Of a stretch of DNA of 64,000 nucleotides, positions 14,669-26,648 are shown one piece after another. The position numbers and the translations under genes were made by a program. The stretch comes from Sulfuricurvum sp. GTDB lineage: Bacteria > Campylobacterota > Campylobacteria > Campylobacterales > Sulfurimonadaceae. The stretch is from positions 186,001 through 250,000 of the forward strand of contig JAQTTG010000003.1 in assembly GCA_028710885.1 (NCBI GenBank). The letters are read 5' to 3'. Every line of letters starts with the position of its first letter. Positions within the stretch are counted from its first letter, which is position 1. The notes beneath the pieces are model-generated. The model made no database searches. It was not told where the DNA came from and saw only the letters and a program-made list of their open reading frames with translations.

Positions 14669-14674
14669 TATAAT
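14669..14674 (+). promoter_or_regulatory. Extended -10 element before leuA
   Basis: TTGCTATAAT contains a perfect TATAAT with a TG extension, 60 bases before the leuA ATG and in the gap after murG. No convincing -35 hexamer is seen at 17 bases; extended -10 promoters often lack one. Confidence 0.5.
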
Positions 14675-14733
14675 TGCGCCACTTATTGCCACCAGCAAGG
14701 GCAGTGAGGAGAGAAAATAGCAAGGAGTTTCTT

Positions 14734-16401
14734 ATGAAACACGCATCTGCGGGCAAATATCGCCCTTATCCTCAAGTTGATTTGCCGAATCGTATTTGGC
14801 CATCCAATACCATCACGCACGCCCCTATCTGGTGCAGTGTCGATCTTCGCGACGGAAACCAAGCGTTGATTACCCCGATGAATTTGGAACAAAAACTCTC
14901 TCTCTTCAATCTCTTGCTGAAACTCGGATTTAAAACCATCGAGGTGGGATTTCCCTCCGCGTCCAAAGTCGAATTTGACTTTTTGCGCACATTGGTCGAT
15001 CAAAAACTGATTCCCGATGATGTGACGGTGCAGGTGCTCGTCCAAGCGCGCGAACACTTGATCGATAAAACGTTTGAAGCGCTTGCAGGGGTCAAAAAAG
15101 CGATTGTCCATCTGTACAACTCTACCTCTGTGGCACAGCGTAAAATCGTCTTCGGAAAAGAACAGGACGAAATCATCGCCCTCGCTATGGAGGGGGTCGA
15201 TATGGTCAAAGCCCGCGCCCTTAAACACGACGGCGAAATTATCCTCGAATACTCCCCTGAGAGTTTTACGGGGACGGAACTCGAATTTGCCGCCCGTATC
15301 TGTAATGCGGTTACAGATCGTTGGGGGATCAGTGCTGAACGTCCTGTGGTCATTAATCTCCCCGCAACGGTAGAGATGGCGACGCCGAACGTCTATGCCG
15401 ATCAGATTGAGTGGATGAGCCGTCATTTGAGCAACCGTGAGCACGTATTGATCTCGACCCATACCCACAACGACCGAGGAACGTCGGTTGCGGCAACGGA
15501 GCTTGCTTTGTTGGCGGGAGCGGATCGTGTCGAGGGGACATTGCTCTCCAACGGTGAGCGTACCGGAAACGTCGATATCATCACCTTGGCACTCAATATG
15601 TATACCCAAGGGGTTGATCCGCAGTTGGATTTCAGCGATTTGGAGACAGTTGTTCGCGTCGTCGAAGAGTGCACTGACATGAAAACGCATGAGCGCCATC
15701 CGTACGTGGGCGAACTCGTCTATACGGCGTTTTCAGGATCACACCAAGACGCGATCAACAAAGGGTTGGCGTATCAGCGTTCCAAAGAAGATGCGTTTTG
15801 GGAAGTGCCGTATCTCCCTATCGATCCGCAGGACGTGGGGCGCAACTATGAGGGGATTATCCGTATCAATTCTCAATCGGGGAAAGGGGGCGTTGCGTAC
15901 GTCCTCGAAGATAAATTCGGCTATTCGTTGCCGAAGAAAATGCACCCTGAAATCGGGACAATCGTTCAAAAGGTGACTGACGAAGCGGGACGCGAGTTGA
16001 GCAGTGAAGAGATTTTGGATATTTTTGAAAAAACGTACTTCGGTGAACCGCATGACATCGAGTTTGTCGATTATTCAGTAGTCTCTGAGAGTGCAAAAGA
16101 GCATTTAGCAAAATGTGTCCTTGAGTATACTCATAACGGCAAGACAATTAAGAGCGAAGGGCAGGGGAACGGTCCGATCGATGCGTGTAAGAATGCGTTG
16201 ATGGTGGAATATTCACACGGATTTAAAATCCTCTCCTACTCGGAGCATTCACGCGGAGAACTCTCCAGTGCTGAAGCGGTCGCCTACATCGAGATCCAGA
16301 GCGATGGAATGGAGAAATTTTTCGGTGTCGGATGTGATAACGACATTACTGTTGCATCAATCAAAGCGATGTTTAGCGCTCTTAATCGGGCGTTTTCGTA
16401 A
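14734..16401 (+). CDS. leuA: 2-isopropylmalate synthase, yeast/actinobacterial type
   Basis: LeuA condenses acetyl-CoA with 2-oxoisovalerate, the first committed step of leucine synthesis. About 555 residues from ATG 14734, which follows CAAGGAG. The N-terminus KYRPYPQVDLPNRIWPSN and WCSVDLRDGNQALITPM are typical of the TIGR00970 (fungal/actinobacterial) subfamily, not the E. coli type (TTLRDGEQ). STHTHNDRGTSVAATELALLAG supplies the HxH metal ligands. The C-terminal regulatory (LeuA dimer) domain is present, so feedback by leucine is likely. Codon use is more GC-rich than in murG before it and the cassette after it; uvrB, alaS and dnaB show the same style, so this alone does not prove transfer. 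Confidence 0.93.
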   Translation: MKHASAGKYRPYPQVDLPNRIWPSNTITHAPIWCSVDLRDGNQALITPMNLEQKLSLFNLLLKLGFKTIEVGFPSASKVEFDFLRTLVDQKLIPDDVTVQVLVQAREHLIDKTFEALAGVKKAIVHLYNSTSVAQRKIVFGKEQDEIIALAMEGVDMVKARALKHDGEIILEYSPESFTGTELEFAARICNAVTDRWGISAERPVVINLPATVEMATPNVYADQIEWMSRHLSNREHVLISTHTHNDRGTSVAATELALLAGADRVEGTLLSNGERTGNVDIITLALNMYTQGVDPQLDFSDLETVVRVVEECTDMKTHERHPYVGELVYTAFSGSHQDAINKGLAYQRSKEDAFWEVPYLPIDPQDVGRNYEGIIRINSQSGKGGVAYVLEDKFGYSLPKKMHPEIGTIVQKVTDEAGRELSSEEILDIFEKTYFGEPHDIEFVDYSVVSESAKEHLAKCVLEYTHNGKTIKSEGQGNGPIDACKNALMVEYSHGFKILSYSEHSRGELSSAEAVAYIEIQSDGMEKFFGVGCDNDITVASIKAMFSALNRAFS

Positions 16402-16412
16402 CCCTCTCAATT

Positions 16413-16430
16413 ATTCCCGCGTTGCGGGAT
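16413..16430 (+). repeat. GC palindrome (CCCGC/GCGGG family) after leuA
   Basis: TCCCGC (16415-16420) and GCGGGA (16424-16429) form a 6-bp stem with a GTT loop, 12 bases after the leuA stop. It probably helps end leuA transcription and is one of several related palindromes in intergenic gaps. Confidence 0.55.
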
Positions 16431-16459
16431 CTAAACTTCTATTTTAAATCTACATCAAC

Positions 16460-16488
16460 TTGACTTTTGTGTAAAATCAAACTAAAAT
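16460..16488 (+). promoter_or_regulatory. Sigma-70-type promoter of the AT-rich cassette
   Basis: TTGACT (16460-16465) and TAAAAT (16483-16488) are spaced by 17 bases, the optimum. They lie about 50 bases upstream of the ATG at 16536. This suggests the three cassette genes have their own constitutive-type promoter. Confidence 0.6.
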
Positions 16489-16535
16489 CCATGACTATTT
16501 ATTAAGAATAATAAAAGTTATTCAGAAGGAGAATT

Positions 16536-17672
16536 ATGGAGTTGTTACCATTATTGCTTGGCTACAGATTAATATTATTGAGTGCAATAGGAGCAATTAC
16601 ATTTTTATTTTTTGTTTATAAAAAATGGAAATATATTGTAGAAACTTGGGATGGAGTTATGTTTTGGAATATGAACTTTTTTTATAGATGGCCATTGATA
16701 GGTAGAATGTCATCACACAAAAGAAGTTTGCATTTAAACAGTGAGAATGGTTGGTATGACGGTGAACGAAAACTTTGTGAAGATTTTTTTCCAAGATATA
16801 AACGATATGCAAGTTATACAGAAAAAGATTATATTAATTGCAAAAATTATTTAGCAAAAGCTGGAGAAACAGGTAGAAATCCAAGACCTTTGTGGATGTG
16901 GCTAGTTTTAATAGCATTTGTTGTCGGTGAAGCTGCTATTTTCTCAAAATTGATTCTCTCTTTTGCTGGGGAACTTTCAAACAACGATATTAAATGGGTC
17001 TCTTGGGTTATTGCATTTTTATTAGCCATGGTGCTACTTTTTTTGACAGAAAAAACAGGTCATGAACTCTATGTCAATACACTGATTAAAAAAGTAAAAA
17101 TTTGGCATAGTGATGATGTGAAATCAGAGTATAAGATTCCAAGACCAAATTTAAAAGTTAGTTTACTTAATAATGATTTTGATGACAATGATCCAGACTA
17201 TCAACAAATTTTAAATAGATTAAATGGTGTAAATGTGGAATTGAAGCCAATGTACGCTTGGGGTATTGGAACGGCGGTTATTGTAGGGATAATCGCTGTA
17301 ATAGCTTTTATAGAAAGATCTGCACTAAATAGTGACATGATAGAAACTTCTGAAGTAGGCGCTTATAGTAGTTATCTTTTTTATAGTGTGGTGTTTTTGG
17401 CAATTCAAGCGATGGGTGTAGGATTTGCTTATTTGTATAGTTTTGCTAGCAAAGAGGGTATGATCGCATGGAACTTGTCACATAAGTTTGTAAGTGTAGA
17501 AGATTATCTCAAATGGCCACATAGAAAAGCTGATAAGATAGCAGAAGTAGCGCAAGATAGACTAAGTCATTTACAAAAGTTTATCCTTAAAAAAGCTTCA
17601 AGTGATGAAATCAATTTAGCGCAAATGCATAAACGAACATTCAGAGCTTATGCGACGCAAGAGAAAGTATAA
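16536..17672 (+). CDS. Polytopic membrane protein of unknown function (cassette gene 1)
   Basis: 378 residues, start ATG 16536 after AGAAGGAG. About five hydrophobic segments are visible: residues about 5-28, 118-145, 153-172, 243-263 and 285-308. Between the first and second is a charged region with aromatic pairs (WNMNFFYRWPLIGRM), and a polar C-terminal tail of about 60 residues is rich in Lys and Gln. No enzyme or transporter motif is recognised. The gene is visibly AT-rich, favouring TTA/ATA/AAA codons. It overlaps the next gene by one base (TAATG), so the two are probably translationally coupled. Not identified. Confidence 0.75.
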   Translation: MELLPLLLGYRLILLSAIGAITFLFFVYKKWKYIVETWDGVMFWNMNFFYRWPLIGRMSSHKRSLHLNSENGWYDGERKLCEDFFPRYKRYASYTEKDYINCKNYLAKAGETGRNPRPLWMWLVLIAFVVGEAAIFSKLILSFAGELSNNDIKWVSWVIAFLLAMVLLFLTEKTGHELYVNTLIKKVKIWHSDDVKSEYKIPRPNLKVSLLNNDFDDNDPDYQQILNRLNGVNVELKPMYAWGIGTAVIVGIIAVIAFIERSALNSDMIETSEVGAYSSYLFYSVVFLAIQAMGVGFAYLYSFASKEGMIAWNLSHKFVSVEDYLKWPHRKADKIAEVAQDRLSHLQKFILKKASSDEINLAQMHKRTFRAYATQEKV

Positions 17673-18529
17673 TGAATACAAGATTATTATTGGTAGCTTT
17701 TTTGTTTGGATTGCTAACCGCTGGGTGCGGTAATACAGATAAAAAAGATGCAGTTGTTAAAGTTGATCAAAGTTGTTATGAACAATACTTCATTAAAACT
17801 GACAATTCCAATCCCATACGACAGGTTTTTATTATAGTTGATCAAACTACAGTTTTTAATGATGCTATCTTGAAAAATTTACTTGAAAAGGTGCAACCGC
17901 TTTTTATTGCAGGAAGTAAAATCACTTTGGTAAAATTTTCGACATTTACTGATAAATATTACACTTCTGTTGTCAAAGAAACATTTGTTGATACACCGTT
18001 AAGTCAAGAAGTAGAAGATGATACTCCGATAGCAAAAGTTAAAAAATTTAAGAGATGTATTGATATGCAATCGAACGATATAGCTAATGAAATGCCAACA
18101 ATGATAACAGAAACCATGAAAGATTCAAATAGCTCTATCGAGCAATCGGAAATTTTGAAAACATTAAAGGACATTGCAGATACAAAGGTACAAAAATCAA
18201 AAGCTCAAGAAAAAATTATTATTTTAGTTTCTGATATGGTAGAAAATTCTAGCATGACATCGTTTTATCAAAATAATAATCTGAAAGTAATTAACCCTTC
18301 TATTGAGCTGTCAAAAACAAAGGCTGCTGGATTGTTAAGTGATTTTGATGGTGCAAAAGTTTATGTTGTTGGTGCAGGCTTAGTAATGAATAGCCATACT
18401 AGCAGATCAATAGCTTCTATAAAAGAGCTAAAAGAGTTTTGGACAAAATATTTTGCTACGTCAAATGCAACATTGGTTGGTTTTGGAACGCCTGAACTGA
18501 TGGAAGACATTGTAGTTGATAAAAAATAA
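17672..18529 (+). CDS. Lipoprotein with VWA-like fold (cassette gene 2)
   Basis: 285 residues. A signal peptide ends in the lipobox LTAGC (lipidated Cys19), so the protein is exported and membrane-anchored. Residues about 50-60 (RQVFIIVDQTT) and 181-190 (KIIILVSDMV) resemble the first strand and the SDG-like strand of von Willebrand A domains, but the metal site is degenerate: D57-x-T59-x-V61 instead of DxSxS, and SDM instead of SDG. A further strand VYVVGAGL follows. It is cotranslated with the membrane protein before it. A sensing or adhesion role is conceivable, not shown. Confidence 0.72.
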   Translation: MNTRLLLVAFLFGLLTAGCGNTDKKDAVVKVDQSCYEQYFIKTDNSNPIRQVFIIVDQTTVFNDAILKNLLEKVQPLFIAGSKITLVKFSTFTDKYYTSVVKETFVDTPLSQEVEDDTPIAKVKKFKRCIDMQSNDIANEMPTMITETMKDSNSSIEQSEILKTLKDIADTKVQKSKAQEKIIILVSDMVENSSMTSFYQNNNLKVINPSIELSKTKAAGLLSDFDGAKVYVVGAGLVMNSHTSRSIASIKELKEFWTKYFATSNATLVGFGTPELMEDIVVDKK

Positions 18530-18534
18530 TTTTC

Positions 18535-19065
18535 ATGCAATTTCAAGATAATAAATCTTTTACAGCTCATCAAAACTATTGGATTTCTTTAAGTCTACTT
18601 TTTATTGGATCAATGCTTTTAGTAGCTTTGTATATGACTTATAATGAAGAGTATTTTCTTTACGGTGCTTATAGCACCTTTATATTTTTTCTTTACAAGT
18701 TTTTAGGTGGAAAATATATTATACGGTTTCTTCAAAATGGATTCAATACTTTGAAAATCATTTTTCTAAGAACTAAAGAGTTTTCATCGGATCATAGCAG
18801 AACCCTTGTTTTTATATTCGGTTCATTATTGACTGCACTTTTTACTTGGTATATTTTTTATAGTGGAAATTACTGGATAATTTTTTTACTTGCATTTATA
18901 ATTTATATTTTTTATCTTATAGCAACACATATTTCAGAAATAGTAAGATTCGTAATAACATTATTAATTATTCTTAGTGTTATATTTATGATAGGAATAT
19001 TTTCTTCTGACTCTTCAAATGATACTAATACTTCTAATGTAAATGTTATTAAAAAAGAAAAATAG
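18535..19065 (+). CDS. Small polytopic membrane protein (cassette gene 3)
   Basis: 176 residues starting ATG 18535, six bases after the preceding stop. Four hydrophobic stretches: about 17-36, 41-58, 95-110 and 114-150. The C-terminal tail is short and Ser/Asn/Lys-rich (SSDSSNDTNTSN). It is strongly AT-rich. No homologous family is recognised. Its place directly behind the lipoprotein suggests that all three products act together at the envelope. Confidence 0.62.
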   Translation: MQFQDNKSFTAHQNYWISLSLLFIGSMLLVALYMTYNEEYFLYGAYSTFIFFLYKFLGGKYIIRFLQNGFNTLKIIFLRTKEFSSDHSRTLVFIFGSLLTALFTWYIFYSGNYWIIFLLAFIIYIFYLIATHISEIVRFVITLLIILSVIFMIGIFSSDSSNDTNTSNVNVIKKEK

Positions 19066-19110
19066 CAATAAACAAAGTACATGATTTTTTTAGCGTGAAA
19101 TTTTGAAGGT

Positions 19111-19192
19111 AACTAGATTCTCAATCAAGTTAGGAATGACGAATAATATCTTCTTTCTCGATAACTGAGAGTGTTTCCGCCATTGGCGGGAA
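19111..19192. repeat. Paired palindromes between cassette and pbp1A
   Basis: An imperfect palindrome ATTCTCAA-tcaag-TTAGGAAT followed by GACG (about 19117-19141) is followed by TTCCGCC-att-GGCGGGAA (19175-19192) and ATGAGGAT. The last element resembles the palindromes after rpoC, after leuA and at 42398, the last of which is also followed by ATGAGGAT. Both cassette gene 3 and the convergent pbp1A end here, so it may act as a bidirectional terminator. Confidence 0.5.
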
Positions 19193-19200
19193 CATGAGGA

Positions 19201-21201
19201 TTAAAATACTAATTGTTCGTTCGTTTTAGGGGTAGATTCATCGGTGGCATCGGGTGCTTTTGATGTATCGGTATAGGTTTCGGTGTTATTTCCCTCATCA
19301 CTAGGAGCTTGATATACCCCTGCAGGAATTCCAAAATAACGTTTTGTATTTGGATAAATACGTAATAAGTCTTCATAAAAATATCGGAAAACAGGGGCGG
19401 CAGCTCGTCCACCGGTTTCACTTCGGCGCATAGGTGTATTGTTATCATAACCCATCCAAACAATTGTTTCAACTGTAGGTGAATATCCTGCAAACCATGC
19501 ATCAACGTTTTTATTTGTAGTTCCTGTTTTTCCTGCTATATCCATTCCACCAACACGTGCACCTGTTCCGGTACCGTGACGGACAACATCTTGCAGTATG
19601 GATGTCATAAGATAAATTTGTTCCGGTGTGTTCACTTGGCGGTGTTTAGTTTCATAGCGTATAGTTTCCCCTTTTGGAGTAATGACTTCACGTATTAAGA
19701 TAGGGTTGGTAAGTACCCCTTCGCCCGCGAACATTGTGTAATATTTGGCTAAATCGATAGGTGAGATAGAAATTGTTCCCAATGCAATAGAGAGATCAGG
19801 CGGGATATTTTCTACGATACCATAGCGTCTCAGCCCTTCTGTAATTTTAGAAAAGCCCATATCGCTAACCATATTAATTGTTGCCAAGTTGCGTGAATGA
19901 GTTAGGGCATCACGGATAGTGACCATACCTTTGTATTCATTTTTAAAATTTTTCGGTTGCCAAGTTTTTTCTTCACCGTCTTCACCAGCATAGGTATAGG
20001 TGCGGGCAATATCGGGGACTAGGGTTGATGGAGACATCCCGCTATCGAGCGCTACCTGATAAATAAAAGGTTTGAAAGCGGAACCCGGTTGACGTTTTGC
20101 TTGTGTTACACGGTTATAAGGGCTTAGGGAATAATCATATCCTCCAACCATAGCTAAAATCTCTCCACTGCGTGGATCAAGACTAATAAGCGCACCATTG
20201 AGCTGACGTTGGATATTTTCATCTAATTCGCCTGCATCTTGTGCTCGTTTCAAAATTTCATTACGCCCTGATTGAAGAGCTTTGTATGCAGACTCTTGAA
20301 GTTGTAAGTCGATGGTTGTATAGACTTTATACCCTCCGCTTCGGATATCGGGAAAAGCATCTCCAAGTTGGCGCATGACTTCATCGATAATATACGGACC
20401 AGAATTTTTGCTCAATGTGTCATTATAGACTTTTGGGCGTTCTTGCGTCGCTTTATCATAAGTTGCTTGATCGATCCAACCTAACTCATACATACGTCCA
20501 ATAACACGATTTGCTCGTCCCAAAGAGAGCTCATAATTTTTTGTAGGAGAATAAAAGTTAGGAGCTTTTGGTAGTCCGACTAACATTGCCATCTCTTTGA
20601 GCGTAAGCTCTTTCAGTGGTTTACGGAAATAGCCATCTGCTGCGGTTTTAATTCCGTAGTATCCGTGTCCTAAATAAATTTCATTAAAGTATCGCTCTAA
20701 AATTTGTTCTTTAGTCAATTCTTGTTCAATACGGATTGAATAGAGGACCTCTTTAAATTTACGGGAAAACTTTTTTTCGCGAGTGAGCAGGGTGTTTTTT
20801 ACCAATTGTTGAGTTATAGTACTCGCACCCTCTTTGAGTTTACCAGCCGTGAGGTCTTTGATGATAGCCCGCATAACCGCATCGGGATTGACACCATGAT
20901 GTTCAAAAAATGTTGTGTCTTCAATCGCTAACAATGCTTCAATGAGTCTAGGGGGGATATTTGGATAAGAGACATAGTAGCGGTGTTCATCACTGAAAAG
21001 GTTAGCGATTTTATTCCCATTACGATCGTATACTTCCGTCGTTAATCGTGGTTGATAGTTTATAAGACGTTTAGTTTCATATTCAAAAGAGTAGATAATA
21101 TACCCCAAGAAAACGACCGGAATCAAAATAGCGATCCCTATTGTAATTAATATATATTTTTTCACTCTTTTCCTTAGTGGTACTTCTTCATACAGTTGCA
21201 T
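19201..21201 (-). CDS. pbp1A: Penicillin-binding protein 1A (bifunctional class A PBP)
   Basis: Makes and cross-links peptidoglycan. The 666 residues have one membrane anchor (about 15-38), then a GT51 transglycosylase domain with IEDTTFFEHHGVNP and EGASTITQQLVKN, and a transpeptidase domain with GSAFKPF (SxxK), SRN and KTGTTNK. The C-terminal tail is low-complexity, Thr/Asp/Glu-rich. Its ATG overlaps the stop of the ABC ATPase gene by one base. It is the last gene of the leftward uvrB-to-pbp1A cluster. Confidence 0.95.
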   Translation of the reverse strand: MQLYEEVPLRKRVKKYILITIGIAILIPVVFLGYIIYSFEYETKRLINYQPRLTTEVYDRNGNKIANLFSDEHRYYVSYPNIPPRLIEALLAIEDTTFFEHHGVNPDAVMRAIIKDLTAGKLKEGASTITQQLVKNTLLTREKKFSRKFKEVLYSIRIEQELTKEQILERYFNEIYLGHGYYGIKTAADGYFRKPLKELTLKEMAMLVGLPKAPNFYSPTKNYELSLGRANRVIGRMYELGWIDQATYDKATQERPKVYNDTLSKNSGPYIIDEVMRQLGDAFPDIRSGGYKVYTTIDLQLQESAYKALQSGRNEILKRAQDAGELDENIQRQLNGALISLDPRSGEILAMVGGYDYSLSPYNRVTQAKRQPGSAFKPFIYQVALDSGMSPSTLVPDIARTYTYAGEDGEEKTWQPKNFKNEYKGMVTIRDALTHSRNLATINMVSDMGFSKITEGLRRYGIVENIPPDLSIALGTISISPIDLAKYYTMFAGEGVLTNPILIREVITPKGETIRYETKHRQVNTPEQIYLMTSILQDVVRHGTGTGARVGGMDIAGKTGTTNKNVDAWFAGYSPTVETIVWMGYDNNTPMRRSETGGRAAAPVFRYFYEDLLRIYPNTKRYFGIPAGVYQAPSDEGNNTETYTDTSKAPDATDESTPKTNEQLVF

Positions 21202-21899
21202 TATTCTCTAAATCCTCGGTTGCTAAATTCAGCGTCAATTAACGCCTGTGTATATGATTCTTTTGGATTGCGCATCACATCGGCTATATTACCTTCTTCG
21301 ATTAGTTGACCATTTCGTATAACACAAATTTCTTCGCATAATTGTGAGGCTACGCGCATATCATGGGTAACAAATAGCATCGAAAACTCCATTTTTTCTT
21401 GTAATGTTTTTAGTAATGTAATCATAGCTTCTTTTGAGTCAGGATCAAGTGCTGTGGTCGGTTCATCCAGCAACAACAGTTTCGGGTTGGATCCCAGTGC
21501 TATTGCAACAACAACACGCTGAAGCTGTCCACCGGATAGTTCAGGGGGAAATCGATGTAGCAAGGATTTGTCTAATCCTAAGAATCCAAACAGCTCTTGC
21601 GCACGTTTATCGTCTAGAAACAGTTGATCTTTAATTCTGGTTAATGGCGACAAAGCAGTAAATGGATTTTGAGGAACCAGAGCGACTGTTTTTCCTAAAA
21701 TCCATTCAAAGTCTGATTTTTTTTCAAATTCGATAGCAAGTGTTGAATCTAAAAGTCCCAATAAGGCTTTGAGTGTCAATGATTTGCCGCTTCCACTTTG
21801 TCCGACTAATGCTAATGAACGATGAATTTTGAATTTTATATCGAGTAAAATGTCCGTTTGATAAGTGATTTTGAGCCGATCAATGGAGATGACATTCAT
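21201..21899 (-). CDS. Orphan ABC transporter ATP-binding protein, peptide/nickel type
   Basis: 232 residues, one ABC ATPase domain: Walker A GQSGSGKSLT (about 34-43), Q-loop LVPQNPFTALSP, signature LSGGQLQRV, Walker B KLLLLDEPTTALD and switch His in FVTHDMRV. The Q-loop QNPFTALSP and the C-terminal style resemble DppD/OppD ATPases. No permease or binding-protein gene is adjacent, so its partner must be elsewhere or it acts otherwise. It lies between bioF (4-base gap) and pbp1A (one-base overlap). Substrate unknown. Confidence 0.85.
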   Translation of the reverse strand: MNVISIDRLKITYQTDILLDIKFKIHRSLALVGQSGSGKSLTLKALLGLLDSTLAIEFEKKSDFEWILGKTVALVPQNPFTALSPLTRIKDQLFLDDKRAQELFGFLGLDKSLLHRFPPELSGGQLQRVVVAIALGSNPKLLLLDEPTTALDPDSKEAMITLLKTLQEKMEFSMLFVTHDMRVASQLCEEICVIRNGQLIEEGNIADVMRNPKESYTQALIDAEFSNRGFRE

Positions 21900-21903
21900 A
21901 GTG

Positions 21904-23010
21904 TTATTTTACACTAATCGAGCTAAATCGCTCACATACATGACGCAAAGTATTTTCCTCTATATCAACTCTGGCTATAAGACGAATAATTGCTTTTTCG
22001 ACGGTAGGTTGTCGTATCGCTCCGACAACAACTCCCATCTCATTTTTAAGTGATTGTTGCAATTCGATGACGCGGCGGTTATCTCCGATCTCAATAGGGA
22101 CGATAAGCCCTGCACAGATTATTCCGAGCGTTTCATGGACAATTGCTTGATTGGTCATGATTTTTTTGGACAAACTTGAATTATTGTTTTGAATATAGGT
22201 TAATGCATGGTGTGCCAACGCAGTATCGTAAAGGGAAGGGGCTGTAGCATAAATGACATTTTTAGCACGGTTAATCAAATATTGACTAATGTGGCGAGAA
22301 GAGAGCACATACGCACCGAAACTCCCGTATGCTTTGCCGAGTGTCCCCATTTTAATCATCATAGGTGTCGGAGCAATGCGATAATAATCCAGTATACCCA
22401 TAAGTGATTCGCCGATAACACCACTGCTGTGTGCTTCGTCTAAAATTAAGATAGCCTCATGAGCGATGGCGAGATCGATGATTTCTCGCGGTACCAGATC
22501 ACCACCCATTGAATATATTCCCTCGACGGCAATAATAGTCCGTTTTCCACGGATATTTTCGAGTTCTTTTTGAAGTGCTAAAAAATCGTTATGAGGGAAA
22601 AAAATAACTTCTCCTTCACACATTCGTGCACCGGCAATTCCACTAGCATGATAATGTTCATCCATAAGCAGAACATCACCTTTGCGTACCAATGATTCGA
22701 TGAGGCCGATATTAGCATTGAATCCGCTTCCCATAACGATTCCTGCTTCAAATCCATTGGCTTCGCACAGAGCATCTTCAAAAGCATTATGGATGGGATG
22801 ATAGCCGTTAACAAGCATTGATGCTTTAGGGGAATACTGAGAATATTGAGACAATGTCTCACAGGCTTGTAGATGAAGTTCTTTGTGATGTGCCAACCCT
22901 AAATAATCGTTTGATGCCATATCGATTAGGGTTTCATCGCTGATGATACGCTCGCGAAAACGTCCGGAACGTTTTAGAGCCTTTAGTTCACTTTCGTATG
23001 GATTTATCAT
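21904..23010 (-). CDS. bioF: 8-amino-7-oxononanoate synthase (alpha-oxoamine synthase family)
   Basis: Condenses pimeloyl-ACP/CoA with alanine in biotin synthesis, using PLP. 368 residues. Features: SNDYLGLA near the N-terminus, HYHASGIAGAR (ring-stacking His region), DEAHSSGVIG (Asp191, His194) and the Schiff-base Lys226 in TLGKAYGSFG. Related enzymes (Kbl, HemA, serine palmitoyltransferase) share these motifs, so BioF is the most likely but not the only possible activity. Its start overlaps maf by four bases. No other bio genes are in the window. Confidence 0.85.
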   Translation of the reverse strand: MINPYESELKALKRSGRFRERIISDETLIDMASNDYLGLAHHKELHLQACETLSQYSQYSPKASMLVNGYHPIHNAFEDALCEANGFEAGIVMGSGFNANIGLIESLVRKGDVLLMDEHYHASGIAGARMCEGEVIFFPHNDFLALQKELENIRGKRTIIAVEGIYSMGGDLVPREIIDLAIAHEAILILDEAHSSGVIGESLMGILDYYRIAPTPMMIKMGTLGKAYGSFGAYVLSSRHISQYLINRAKNVIYATAPSLYDTALAHHALTYIQNNNSSLSKKIMTNQAIVHETLGIICAGLIVPIEIGDNRRVIELQQSLKNEMGVVVGAIRQPTVEKAIIRLIARVDIEENTLRHVCERFSSISVK

Positions 23011-23555
23011 GAGAGAAACGGCTTTAAGACTTCAGTACAAAGACCCATTGCGGTACTCTCGAATCCTCGAACTTCACGAATATAGGGTTTACAGAAACCT
23101 TCGACCATACACGCCCCTGCTTTGCCTCTCCACTCGCCGCTTTGGAGGTATTTTTCAATGGCTTGCGGATCGAAAACATTGAAAAAATAGTGGGTGGAGG
23201 AGATATCGATCAGTTCCAACCTCGGAGTTTTATAAATCATGCAGGTGATAATAGCAACGTCCGAACCACTTTGCATTTGTAAAATAGTTCGTGCATCGGT
23301 TTCATCTTTGGCTTTACGCAAAATTTTGCCGTGAGCGGTAACCACAGTATCGGCTACAAGAAGTGGATAATCCTCACACCCGAATTTTTCCAAATTTATT
23401 TTGTACTTTCCGAGTGTCGCTTGATAGACAAAATTTTTGGGTGACGTAGCAAGTATAGAGTCTTCGTCGAAATCGAGTGACTCTTGAAGAAATGGGATAC
23501 CTGCCGAGGACAAAAGCTCAGCACGGGTAATAGAAGCAGATGCTAATCGGAGCAT
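23007..23555 (-). CDS. maf: Maf-family nucleoside triphosphate pyrophosphatase
   Basis: Maf proteins hydrolyse dTTP/UTP or modified nucleotides to monophosphates and pyrophosphate. 182 residues: LASASITRAELLSSAGI (the usual LAS.SPRR motif with Thr for Pro), LLVADTVV with the catalytic Asp, KAKDETDARTILQMQSG, and EWRGKAGACMVEG. The last motif reads GACMVEGF where many members have GGYGIQG. It overlaps bioF by four bases and starts four bases after the CopD-like gene. Confidence 0.88.
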   Translation of the reverse strand: MLRLASASITRAELLSSAGIPFLQESLDFDEDSILATSPKNFVYQATLGKYKINLEKFGCEDYPLLVADTVVTAHGKILRKAKDETDARTILQMQSGSDVAIITCMIYKTPRLELIDISSTHYFFNVFDPQAIEKYLQSGEWRGKAGACMVEGFCKPYIREVRGFESTAMGLCTEVLKPFLS

Positions 23556-23559
23556 TAAC

Positions 23560-24096
23560 TTAATGTACGTCTCTCAATACGACGCCGATGAAAATAGCGA
23601 TCACACTGAGAGTGATATTGACTGGAACCATATATTTTGAGATCATACCAAGGATGTTTTTTGCCTCTTCAATATTCCCATTGCGCAATGCGATATCGGC
23701 TTTATTGCGACGAAATGTCATCACTGCAAGATTCAATGTCATAATAATCCAGATAGCCTCTTTGATATGAACGGTATTGTAAATACTCATCATATAATCG
23801 TTAATTACAGTACCGTTAGCATCCATTGCCGCTGAACGAAATTGAAAACCGACCGCCATTAGCACTGCAGTAATAATCAATACAATAACAAAAGGCCAAA
23901 CGATCATAAAAAGACGTTTGAGGGTATAAGAAGCACGTTCTAATCGAAGTTTCGGATCAGTGATAAGCTGCATCGATTGGTGAGCCGCAAAACGGATCGC
24001 GATCATTCCTCCCACCCAGATAACGGCACTAAGTACGTGTAAAAAGACTATTAGGAGACGATGGTGCGCAAAAGTTTCGATCAAAAAATCTTTCAT
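23560..24096 (-). CDS. CopD-like integral membrane protein
   Basis: 178 residues with four predicted membrane helices (about 13-33, 63-85, 110-130, 152-175). The first helix has HVLSAVIWVGGMIAIRF, like the start of CopD/DUF2269-type membrane proteins with a conserved His and W-x-G-G. A short helix-loop with basic residues (TFRRNKADIALRNGN) lies between helices 3 and 4. It overlaps the alaS stop by one base. Function is not established; heme- or copper-related roles are only suggested by family resemblance. Confidence 0.65.
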   Translation of the reverse strand: MKDFLIETFAHHRLLIVFLHVLSAVIWVGGMIAIRFAAHQSMQLITDPKLRLERASYTLKRLFMIVWPFVIVLIITAVLMAVGFQFRSAAMDANGTVINDYMMSIYNTVHIKEAIWIIMTLNLAVMTFRRNKADIALRNGNIEEAKNILGMISKYMVPVNITLSVIAIFIGVVLRDVH

Positions 24097-26648
24097 TATA
24101 AAAGTTCCTTCGTAACATACGCCATTGCCGCTTCTTTGGCATCGCTGATTTTTGTGATATCTTTTCCGCCCGCTTGAGCAAAATCAGGACGACCGCCTCC
24201 GCCTCCGCCGAGGATTGGAGCGATTGCTTTGATCCAATCTCCCGCTTTTACACCGGTATTTTTAGCCCCTGCCGCGAGAAGCACTTTGTCGTCTTTTACT
24301 TGGAACAAAATCACCGCAACCGAATCATGCTGATTTTTAAGCTCATCGATACGTTCTTTGATATCTCCGGCACCCAGTTCAGCAACGACAACCGCCGTAT
24401 TACCCATCATGGTCACACTCAGTTCTTCTTTGGCGGAAGAAGCCAACGACGACATTTCGTGTTTGAGGGTTTTGACCTGATCTTTCAGACGCTCGATTCC
24501 AGCCAATACATCGCGATTTTTGACCGATGTTTCGACCTCTTCGAGGAGATGGCGCTGAGATTTAAAGAGATTGTACGCCGCATTGCCGCACACCGCTTCG
24601 ATACGGCGGACACCCGCACTCACGCCGCTCTCTTTGACGATCACAAACGTCCCGATGGTTGCGGTGTTATCCACGTGGATACCGCCGCAAAATTCGACCG
24701 ATGCGGTGCCGAAGTTGACAACACGTACCGTATCGCCGTATTTTTCACCGAACTGTGCTTTCGCACCGCTTTTTTTCGCTTCGTCAATGCTCATTTCTCT
24801 CGTCATCCCTTCCAACGCATGGAAGACATGATAGTTAACCCGCTCTTCAACCAAAGCGATCTCTTCATGAGACATCGCTTTCGGGTGGGAGAAGTCAAAA
24901 CGGAGACGATTATGCTCGACCAACGAACCCGCTTGAGAGATGTGCTCGCCCAAGATTTCGTACAACGCCGCATGGAGCAAATGGGTTGCCGAGTGGTGTT
25001 TGGCTACCTCGTTACGGACAACATCGACAATGGCATCAACCGTATCACCGACACTGAGTGTCGATGAGGTCTCGATGTGGGAGAGATTTAAGCCGTGGAA
25101 TTTTTTGGTGTCCAAAACAACCGCTTTATCGCCGAGAGTTCCGATATCACCGCATTGTCCGCCGCTTTCCGCATAAAATGGGGTCTCTTCAAGAAGAACC
25201 CAGCCGTTTTGATGCGCATGGAGTTGATCAACCCGCTCAAAACTCTCACTTAAAAGGGCTTGGATTTTTACCGGAGCTTTGGTGTAAGCATAACCGATAA
25301 AGGCATTCACACCGAAGGTTTCGAGAAGTGCTTTGAAATCCCCTTCTACGTGTGCATCCCCTGAACCTTTCCACGCCGCTTTTGCACGTTTGCGCTGTTC
25401 ACTCATCAACGTTTCAAACGTCTCCACATCAAGGGCAAGATTTTTTTCGCGAAGCATATCTTCGGTCAAATCGAGTGGAAAACCGAACGTATCGTAGAGT
25501 TTAAACGCCACTTCGCCGCTGAACGTCTCTTTGGTATTTTTGAGCTCTTCATTGAATAGTTCGATCCCTGATGCAATCGTTTTGAAAAAACGCTCTTCCT
25601 CGAGCATGATTTGCTCTTTCAAAACGCTCAGTTTTTCGACGATGTAGGGATATTGTTTCCCCATTAGCTCAGCAACACTGTCGGCGACCTCAAACATAAA
25701 CGGTTTGGTAAATCCGAGCAAATATCCGTGACGAACCGCACGGCGCAAAATACGGCGAAGAACATATCCGCGCCCTTCGTTAGAGAAATTTGTCCCCTGT
25801 GCGAGGAGGAAAGTAACGGTGCGGATATGATCGGCGATAACGCGGTATGATGCACCGCTCGCATAGCTATACGGTTTGGCGATGAGGGCTTCGACTTTAC
25901 GGATGATCGGCATAAATAATGTCGAATCGTAGTTGCTTAATGCCCCCTCTAATACCGCCGTCGCACGCTCTAACCCCATCCCCGTATCGATGGACGGTTT
26001 TGGCAACGGTTTCAACTCACCCTTAGCATTACGCTCATACTGCATAAATACGAGATTCCAGATTTCGAGGAAACGGTCTCCGTCTCCCCCCATGTAATCC
26101 TCAGGGCCGTTAAAGTGTTCCGCTCCCTGATCGATAAAGATTTCCGAACACGGTCCGCATGGTCCGGTATCTCCCATCTGCCAGAAGTTATCTTTGTCTC
26201 CAAGACGCATGATGCGATCCGCGGCGATATGTTTTTTCCAAATCTCTTCGGCTTCGTCATCGCTCTCATGAACAGTAACCCAGAGCTTTTCCGTCGGCAA
26301 TTTCATAACTTCTGTTACAAACTCCCACGCGTGAGAAATTGCTTCTTCTTTGAAATAATCGCCGAAACTGAAGTTTCCAAGCATCTCGAAAAAGGTATGG
26401 TGACGCGCTGTATGACCAACGTTTTCTAAGTCATTGTGCTTTCCGCCGGCGCGGATGCAGGTTTGCGCACTGGTGGCACGCGGATTGGATGGGATAGGGA
26501 TATCGCCAGTAAAGATTGATTTAAACGGAACCATACCCGCATTGGTAAAAAGCAAGGTTGCATCATCGGGAACGAGTGGGGAACTCGCGGCACGTTCGTG
26601 TTGTTTTGATTCAAAAAAGGCTAAAAAAGCTTCGCGGACATCCATCAT
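24096..26648 (-). CDS. alaS: Alanyl-tRNA synthetase
   Basis: Charges tRNA(Ala) and edits Ser/Gly. The 850 residues contain the class II core ([58 protein letters not shown]), the editing domain with [11 protein letters not shown] and CGGIHV, and the C-Ala domain ending [15 protein letters not shown]. Two ATGs stand in tandem at 26648 and 26645. It follows dedA by 61 bases in the leftward cluster. Length and motifs are complete. Confidence 0.97.

Follow-up and report, generated by a model that had tools for sequence, protein, structure and literature searches.

The Tol-Pal system (TolQRA, TolB and Pal) shares its layout with the OmpA-M-V operon described below: an inner-membrane part, a periplasmic part and an outer-membrane lipoprotein with an OmpA domain. 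Transmembrane (TM)-anchored vWA force transducers working with TolQ-like motors have also been proposed (PMC12204202), and Zorya (ZorA/ZorB) and the YiaD-like glycine-zipper OmpA lipoproteins offer further points of comparison at the level of single domains. Here we analyse three adjoining genes, M, V and X, that form a gene system outside every described family tested; no exotic function is claimed for it.

Organization and history of the M-V-X locus

The window, the whole stretch of 64,000 nucleotides under analysis, covers contig positions 186001–250000 of a 2.64 Mb Sulfuricurvum genome. The trio lies on its forward strand. Gene M (16536–17672) encodes a 378-aa inner-membrane protein with five predicted TM helices and no known family, gene V (17672–18529) overlaps it by one base and encodes a 285-aa lipoprotein with a VWA domain, and gene X (18535–19065), which follows after a gap of five bases, encodes a small polytopic membrane protein of 176 aa. 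The coordinates all confirm the three coupled reading frames reported in the initial annotation, including their 1- and 5-base junctions. The promoter that had been assigned to the trio as its own, TTGACT-N17-TAAAAT, is present upstream (16460–16488, + strand) and remains a sigma-70-type candidate by consensus match only (10/12); it is weak evidence, because similar matches are common in such an AT-rich stretch (24 such sites in the region vs 15.7 ± 4.3 in shuffles).

The GC contents of M, V and X are 0.327, 0.313 and 0.242, respectively, as compared with 0.416 ± 0.038 for the other window genes, and the corresponding GC3 values are 0.238, 0.225 and 0.159, as compared with 0.366 ± 0.080. Ranked by GC3 among the 51 window genes, X and V are the two lowest and M the fourth lowest. 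The earlier claim of AT-richness thus holds for both measures, but not for codon likelihood, since a synonymous-codon test over the window genes did not single out M-V-X as foreign. The outlier in that test is leuA (14674–16401; z −2.1), which has a GC content of about 52% and is conserved in the genus; its codon-usage deviation probably reflects high expression rather than transfer.

The trio had further been described as flanked by CCCGC/GCGGG palindromes marking a transferred unit. A hairpin of the form CCCGC-GTT-GCGGG follows leuA (16416–16428), and a second one, CCGCC-ATT-GGCGG, lies between X and pbp1A (19177–19189); this right-hand palindrome (CCGCCATTGGCGG) differs in sequence from the left-hand one and is not a copy of it. 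Genome-wide, the pattern CCCGC(N3–8)GCGGG was counted 16 times, with 3 in the window, vs 1 for a control pattern, and a similar hairpin stands after leuA in genus relatives without M-V-X as well. Being dispersed in the genome and present after leuA where the trio is lacking, the palindromes are ordinary intergenic hairpins, and their interpretation as element ends was rejected.

In four genus relatives the gene order is leuA-alaS-(178-aa membrane gene)-maf-kbl-ABC-pbp1A-dedA. As compared with these, the block pbp1A-ABC-kbl-maf-membrane gene-alaS (19201–26648, − strand) is inverted in the window, and its leuA-side junction is occupied by M-V-X, which has leuA on one side and the inverted pbp1A on the other. 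The left breakpoint of the alaS-pbp1A inversion is located just past the leuA hairpin. A tRNA-Gln gene, a conceivable insertion site, lies between pbp1A and dedA in three of the four relatives; in the present genome it is found at another place of the same contig (C20:333966, contig position 333966). The leuA-alaS gap measures 103 and 112 bases in two of the four relatives, and in two relatives it holds other DNA (3.5 kb in L163/G051 and 1.4 kb in L165/G082), indicating that this junction has changed repeatedly. The site accepts different insertions in these two genomes.

The M-V-X genes were not found in the four examined leuA-alaS regions of the genus relatives. In the family sample of 151 genomes, M occurs in just one other genome, which belongs to another genus and carries a V of a distant branch, and no further genome of the same genus is present among the matches for M (family sample) or V (Campylobacterota sample). 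Because M is this rare in the family and the leuA-alaS regions of the relatives lack the trio, this lineage most likely acquired the trio, along with an inversion or close to one. The leuA-pbp1A interval, with the trio absent in four relatives and the adjoining block inverted here, and a composition below the window mean therefore speak for the transferred unit of the initial annotation, though not for its palindrome ends.

Predicted structures of V and M

V contains the lipobox LTAGC with Cys19 and no TM segment by hydropathy. Its VWA fold is confidently predicted: in the structural model (pLDDT 88.5, from a 59-sequence alignment) the domain comprises residues 46–285, and it matches VWA structures in both Foldseek (E 3.6e-5, prob 1.0) and VIA (Z 12.8, rmsd 3.0, 159 residues). 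The VWA-like lipoprotein proposed from the letters alone is thereby recovered by lipobox, model and structure search. The assignment relies on the predicted fold, because Pfam sequence models miss V; the VWA models matched one of 18 V members (VWA_CoxE at E 0.088). Residues D57, T59, S90, D188, E191, C35 and C129, and also S193, F198 and Y199, are invariant in 59/59 sequences. Within this set, D57-x-T59, S90 and D188-x-x-E191 form a putative MIDAS-like pattern, a slight variant of the canonical DxSxS...T...D, and binding by V may be metal-dependent.

The close structural matches of V include the pilus tip VWA domains of PitA, Mfa5 and SpaC, as would be expected if the locus were an adhesion or export module in which V, as a VWA adhesin or chaperone, reaches the cell surface and M assists its placement. 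We consider such a module improbable: equally close VWA matches include intracellular proteins, V is small, most of its relatives have a signal sequence only and no lipobox, and the neighbour survey showed no recurrence of pilin, sortase or secretin genes next to V.

Hydropathy places five hydrophobic helices in M, at about residues 3–21, 123–141, 152–170, 241–259 and 280–298, in agreement with the polytopic membrane protein of the initial annotation. Judged by charge, M would be oriented N-out and C-in, with the region between TM1 and TM2 in the cytosol. The predicted model (pLDDT 88.2, built from 62 sequences) has a helical C-terminal tail. Two residues are invariant, E132 in TM2 and G175 after TM3, and the TM4-TM5 loop is 18 aa long in the window vs a median of 63. 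Zinc ribbons are found at the tail in 4 of 17 M members and are lacking in the window protein. Double zinc ribbons close M in Aliarcobacter, Sulfurospirillum and relatives (L005, L030, L031, L032), and the examined Pseudomonadota tails are long and variable in sequence.

Neither sequence nor fold clearly connects M to a known protein family. Comparison with PDB sequences gave noise only, the fold search against the PDB and viral models returned no match at E ≤ 0.001, and the VIA structure comparison reached Z ≤ 6.5 at most, which is noise for a helical protein. Nothing above cut-off was obtained for M, V or X in Pfam, NCBIfam, PHROGs or PADLOC, and V had no match among PDB sequences; profile-HMM searches, in short, assign none of the three to a known family.

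The long, presumably cytosolic TM1-TM2 loop of M and the invariant glutamate E132 in TM2 would also suit a force transducer powered by the PMF, of the Tol/Ton/Mot/Zorya type, in which M would be the ion channel and V or an OmpA protein the rotating or pulling arm. The proposal of vWA force transducers with TolQ-like motors and the matches of the OmpA partner (see below) to ZorB models point in the same direction. Nevertheless, the family listings of 17 M members do not include MotA_ExbB (PF01618), a profile comparison (hhalign) with four MotA/ExbB proteins encoded in the window genome gave a probability of 0.1%, and no ExbB or MotA appears among the Foldseek and VIA matches listed for M. Moreover, a TM segment is lacking in V, and in most OmpA partners a lipobox takes the place of a TM anchor of the MotB/TolR type. 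A motor role for M is therefore assigned a low probability.

Relatives of the trio and the OmpA-M-V operon

By plain sequence search, plasmid-borne homologues were identified in Pantoea, Paraburkholderia, Caballeronia, Acidiphilium, Aliarcobacter and Aeromonas. The homologous operons on the Pantoea, Paraburkholderia, Acidiphilium and Aliarcobacter plasmids consist of an OmpA-family gene, M and then V. A scan of genomes with one M protein as query gave no matches; a later scan with the V alignment over one genome per species succeeded and yielded 159 relatives (at least 159 loci), of which 80 were kept for analysis. These relatives include Pseudomonas, Aeromonas, Shewanella, Photobacterium, Burkholderiales and Methylophilaceae, as well as Alphaproteobacteria, Sulfurospirillum, Sulfurovum and Campylobacter. 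Among 397 sampled Campylobacterota genomes, V is present in 15, the window's own included. No V was found in the viral contigs or phages searched, and no Pantoea M-V DNA in the E. coli genomes searched. The distribution of M-V in many Gram-negative bacteria is patchy and accessory, and the pair has most likely spread horizontally.

M accompanies V in 77 of the 80 related loci from other genomes; of the three remaining loci, two have short upstream sequence and one has no detected M. That three unrelated AT-rich genes were joined by chance would suit a region that is itself a rearrangement junction, but this is very improbable: the M-V pairing spans two phyla, which refutes a chance association of M and V, and the identical M-V-X order recurs in a genome that belongs to another family. 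An OmpA gene is adjacent in 59 of the 80 loci (56 Omp-M-V, 2 M-V-Omp and 1 with M split in two), and M-V stands alone in 11 loci with enough upstream sequence, mainly in Sulfurovum. Beyond M, V and OmpA, the related loci share no constant further gene.

The OmpA partner combines a glycine zipper, a peptidoglycan-binding OmpA domain and a C-terminal domain that bears two invariant cysteines, and most members also carry a lipobox; Pfam detected OmpA and glycine-zipper domains in 11 of 12 partners. V in the OmpA form has a signal sequence and generally no lipobox, and V of the OmpA-less Sulfurovum M-V loci is also without one. An S41-family peptidase gene follows these Sulfurovum-type loci (L049, L055, L061, L069, L085) and is perhaps part of the M-V system of that branch. 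A divergent V-like protein of 406 aa is encoded in a genome of the same family as the window's (L039, 3408–6849, G003), where it is flanked by proteins of 537 and 203 aa that have no match to M; this locus is possibly a distant sister system.

An M-V-X locus of the same gene order lies in a Sulfurovaceae genome (G382), from a family other than the window's. The V proteins of the two loci form one clade with 100% SH-aLRT support and a long stem. The M-V-X variant, which is known from these two loci only, is further characterized by a very short TM4-TM5 loop of M and by a lipobox in both V proteins (LTAGC in the window and LSGC in G382), and at both loci X is present and no OmpA gene adjoins M-V. 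The N-terminal 60 aa or so of X are common to the third gene of the G382 locus, and no other match to X was found. In the window genome, only the OmpA and glycine-zipper parts of the partner find matches, and none of the matching proteins has its C-terminal domain. The window M-V-X is a reduced, OmpA-less variant of the wider OmpA-M-V operon. Across loci, the lipobox of V is present where the OmpA gene is missing in M-V-X and is generally lacking in the OmpA form; most simply, this would mean that in the M-V-X branch V took over the outer-membrane anchoring from OmpA.

A patchy, horizontally moved unit of three genes, partly plasmid-borne, also resembles an anti-phage or anti-plasmid envelope defence, that is, an alarm or entry-exclusion complex that would block DNA injection or kill the cell. 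Inspection by eye pointed to a type I R-M-like gene in the vicinity of one related locus and, next to another, to an HTH gene with a HipA-like gene after it. By comparison, the close same-strand neighbours of M-V are mostly housekeeping genes. Among the 72 examined, envelope-type genes recur at a low frequency (five LemA, two SHOCT and two mechanosensitive channel genes), in favour of the envelope role proposed below, and defence models matched, in an uncontrolled count, at most one IetA/AAA, one TRIP13 and one mads_8. Such associations are few and partly due to relatedness within genera. PADLOC gave no match for the window proteins, one noise-level ZorA match (E 0.095) and otherwise nothing above noise for the M relatives, and for the OmpA partner only ZorB, matched through the OmpA domain. 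A defence function is thus unlikely on present evidence.

Proposed function and comparison with known systems

We tentatively favour, with somewhat less than even confidence, the reading that M-V-X is a horizontally acquired, reduced trans-envelope complex that acts as a sensor or tether of envelope state. In such a complex, M would span the inner membrane and expose its tail and most of its loops to the cytosol, where the zinc ribbons on the M tails of some relatives would also be found. V, in the periplasm, would use its metal site to bind a ligand or the other subunits. OmpA would, in the common form, hold the complex to the peptidoglycan and the outer membrane, whereas in the window form the lipid on V itself would fix V to the outer membrane. 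With V or OmpA anchored to the outer membrane and M in the inner membrane, the complex would join both membranes and could report envelope state to the cytosolic part of M.

The initial annotation had proposed an undescribed inner-membrane complex working with a periplasmic lipoprotein. Its core, a transferred and undescribed unit, withstood the comparisons with relatives, composition and family coverage; that M, V and their partners associate physically is what we infer. The broader idea that M-V(-OmpA) constitutes an undescribed class of trans-envelope machine, in which a polytopic family without recognised relatives would be coupled to a metal-dependent VWA protein reading the state of the outer membrane or peptidoglycan, and whose anchor would have moved from a dedicated OmpA lipoprotein to V in M-V-X, is put forward as a possibility of which we are rather unsure.

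The M-V(-OmpA) system, of which the window trio is a variant, itself appears undescribed. No published description of M or V was found in the open-access literature, although a description elsewhere is possible, and both proteins are missing from the curated family libraries searched despite at least 159 loci with V homologues at one genome per species. If the complex is indeed a trans-envelope sensor or tether, it would be a new, horizontally moving piece of the Gram-negative envelope. Moreover, the absence of OmpA together with the lipidation signal of V in one branch would, if true, offer a convenient way to test the anchoring of such complexes.

The YiaD-like lipoproteins agree with the OmpA partner in their N-terminal and central domains, and the window genome encodes a short one elsewhere; they lack the two-cysteine C-terminal domain of the partner and are unlinked to M-V. 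In Zorya, the resemblance lies in the peptidoglycan-binding OmpA domain of the partner, which scores against ZorB models, whereas no ZorA homologue accompanies M-V and the partner is a glycine-zipper lipoprotein. The vWA force transducers (PMC12204202) and M-V both couple a periplasmic vWA fold genetically to an inner-membrane protein. They differ in that V has no TM helix, being a signal-peptide protein or lipoprotein, and in that neither sequence nor profile comparison places M with TolQ. Tol-Pal differs in several respects: M has no homology to TolQ, V has a VWA fold and not that of TolB, no TolQ-TolR-TolA motor-transducer gene recurs in the neighbour survey, and the window trio is without the OmpA part. 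Furthermore, M-V is a patchy accessory system, whereas Tol-Pal belongs to the core.
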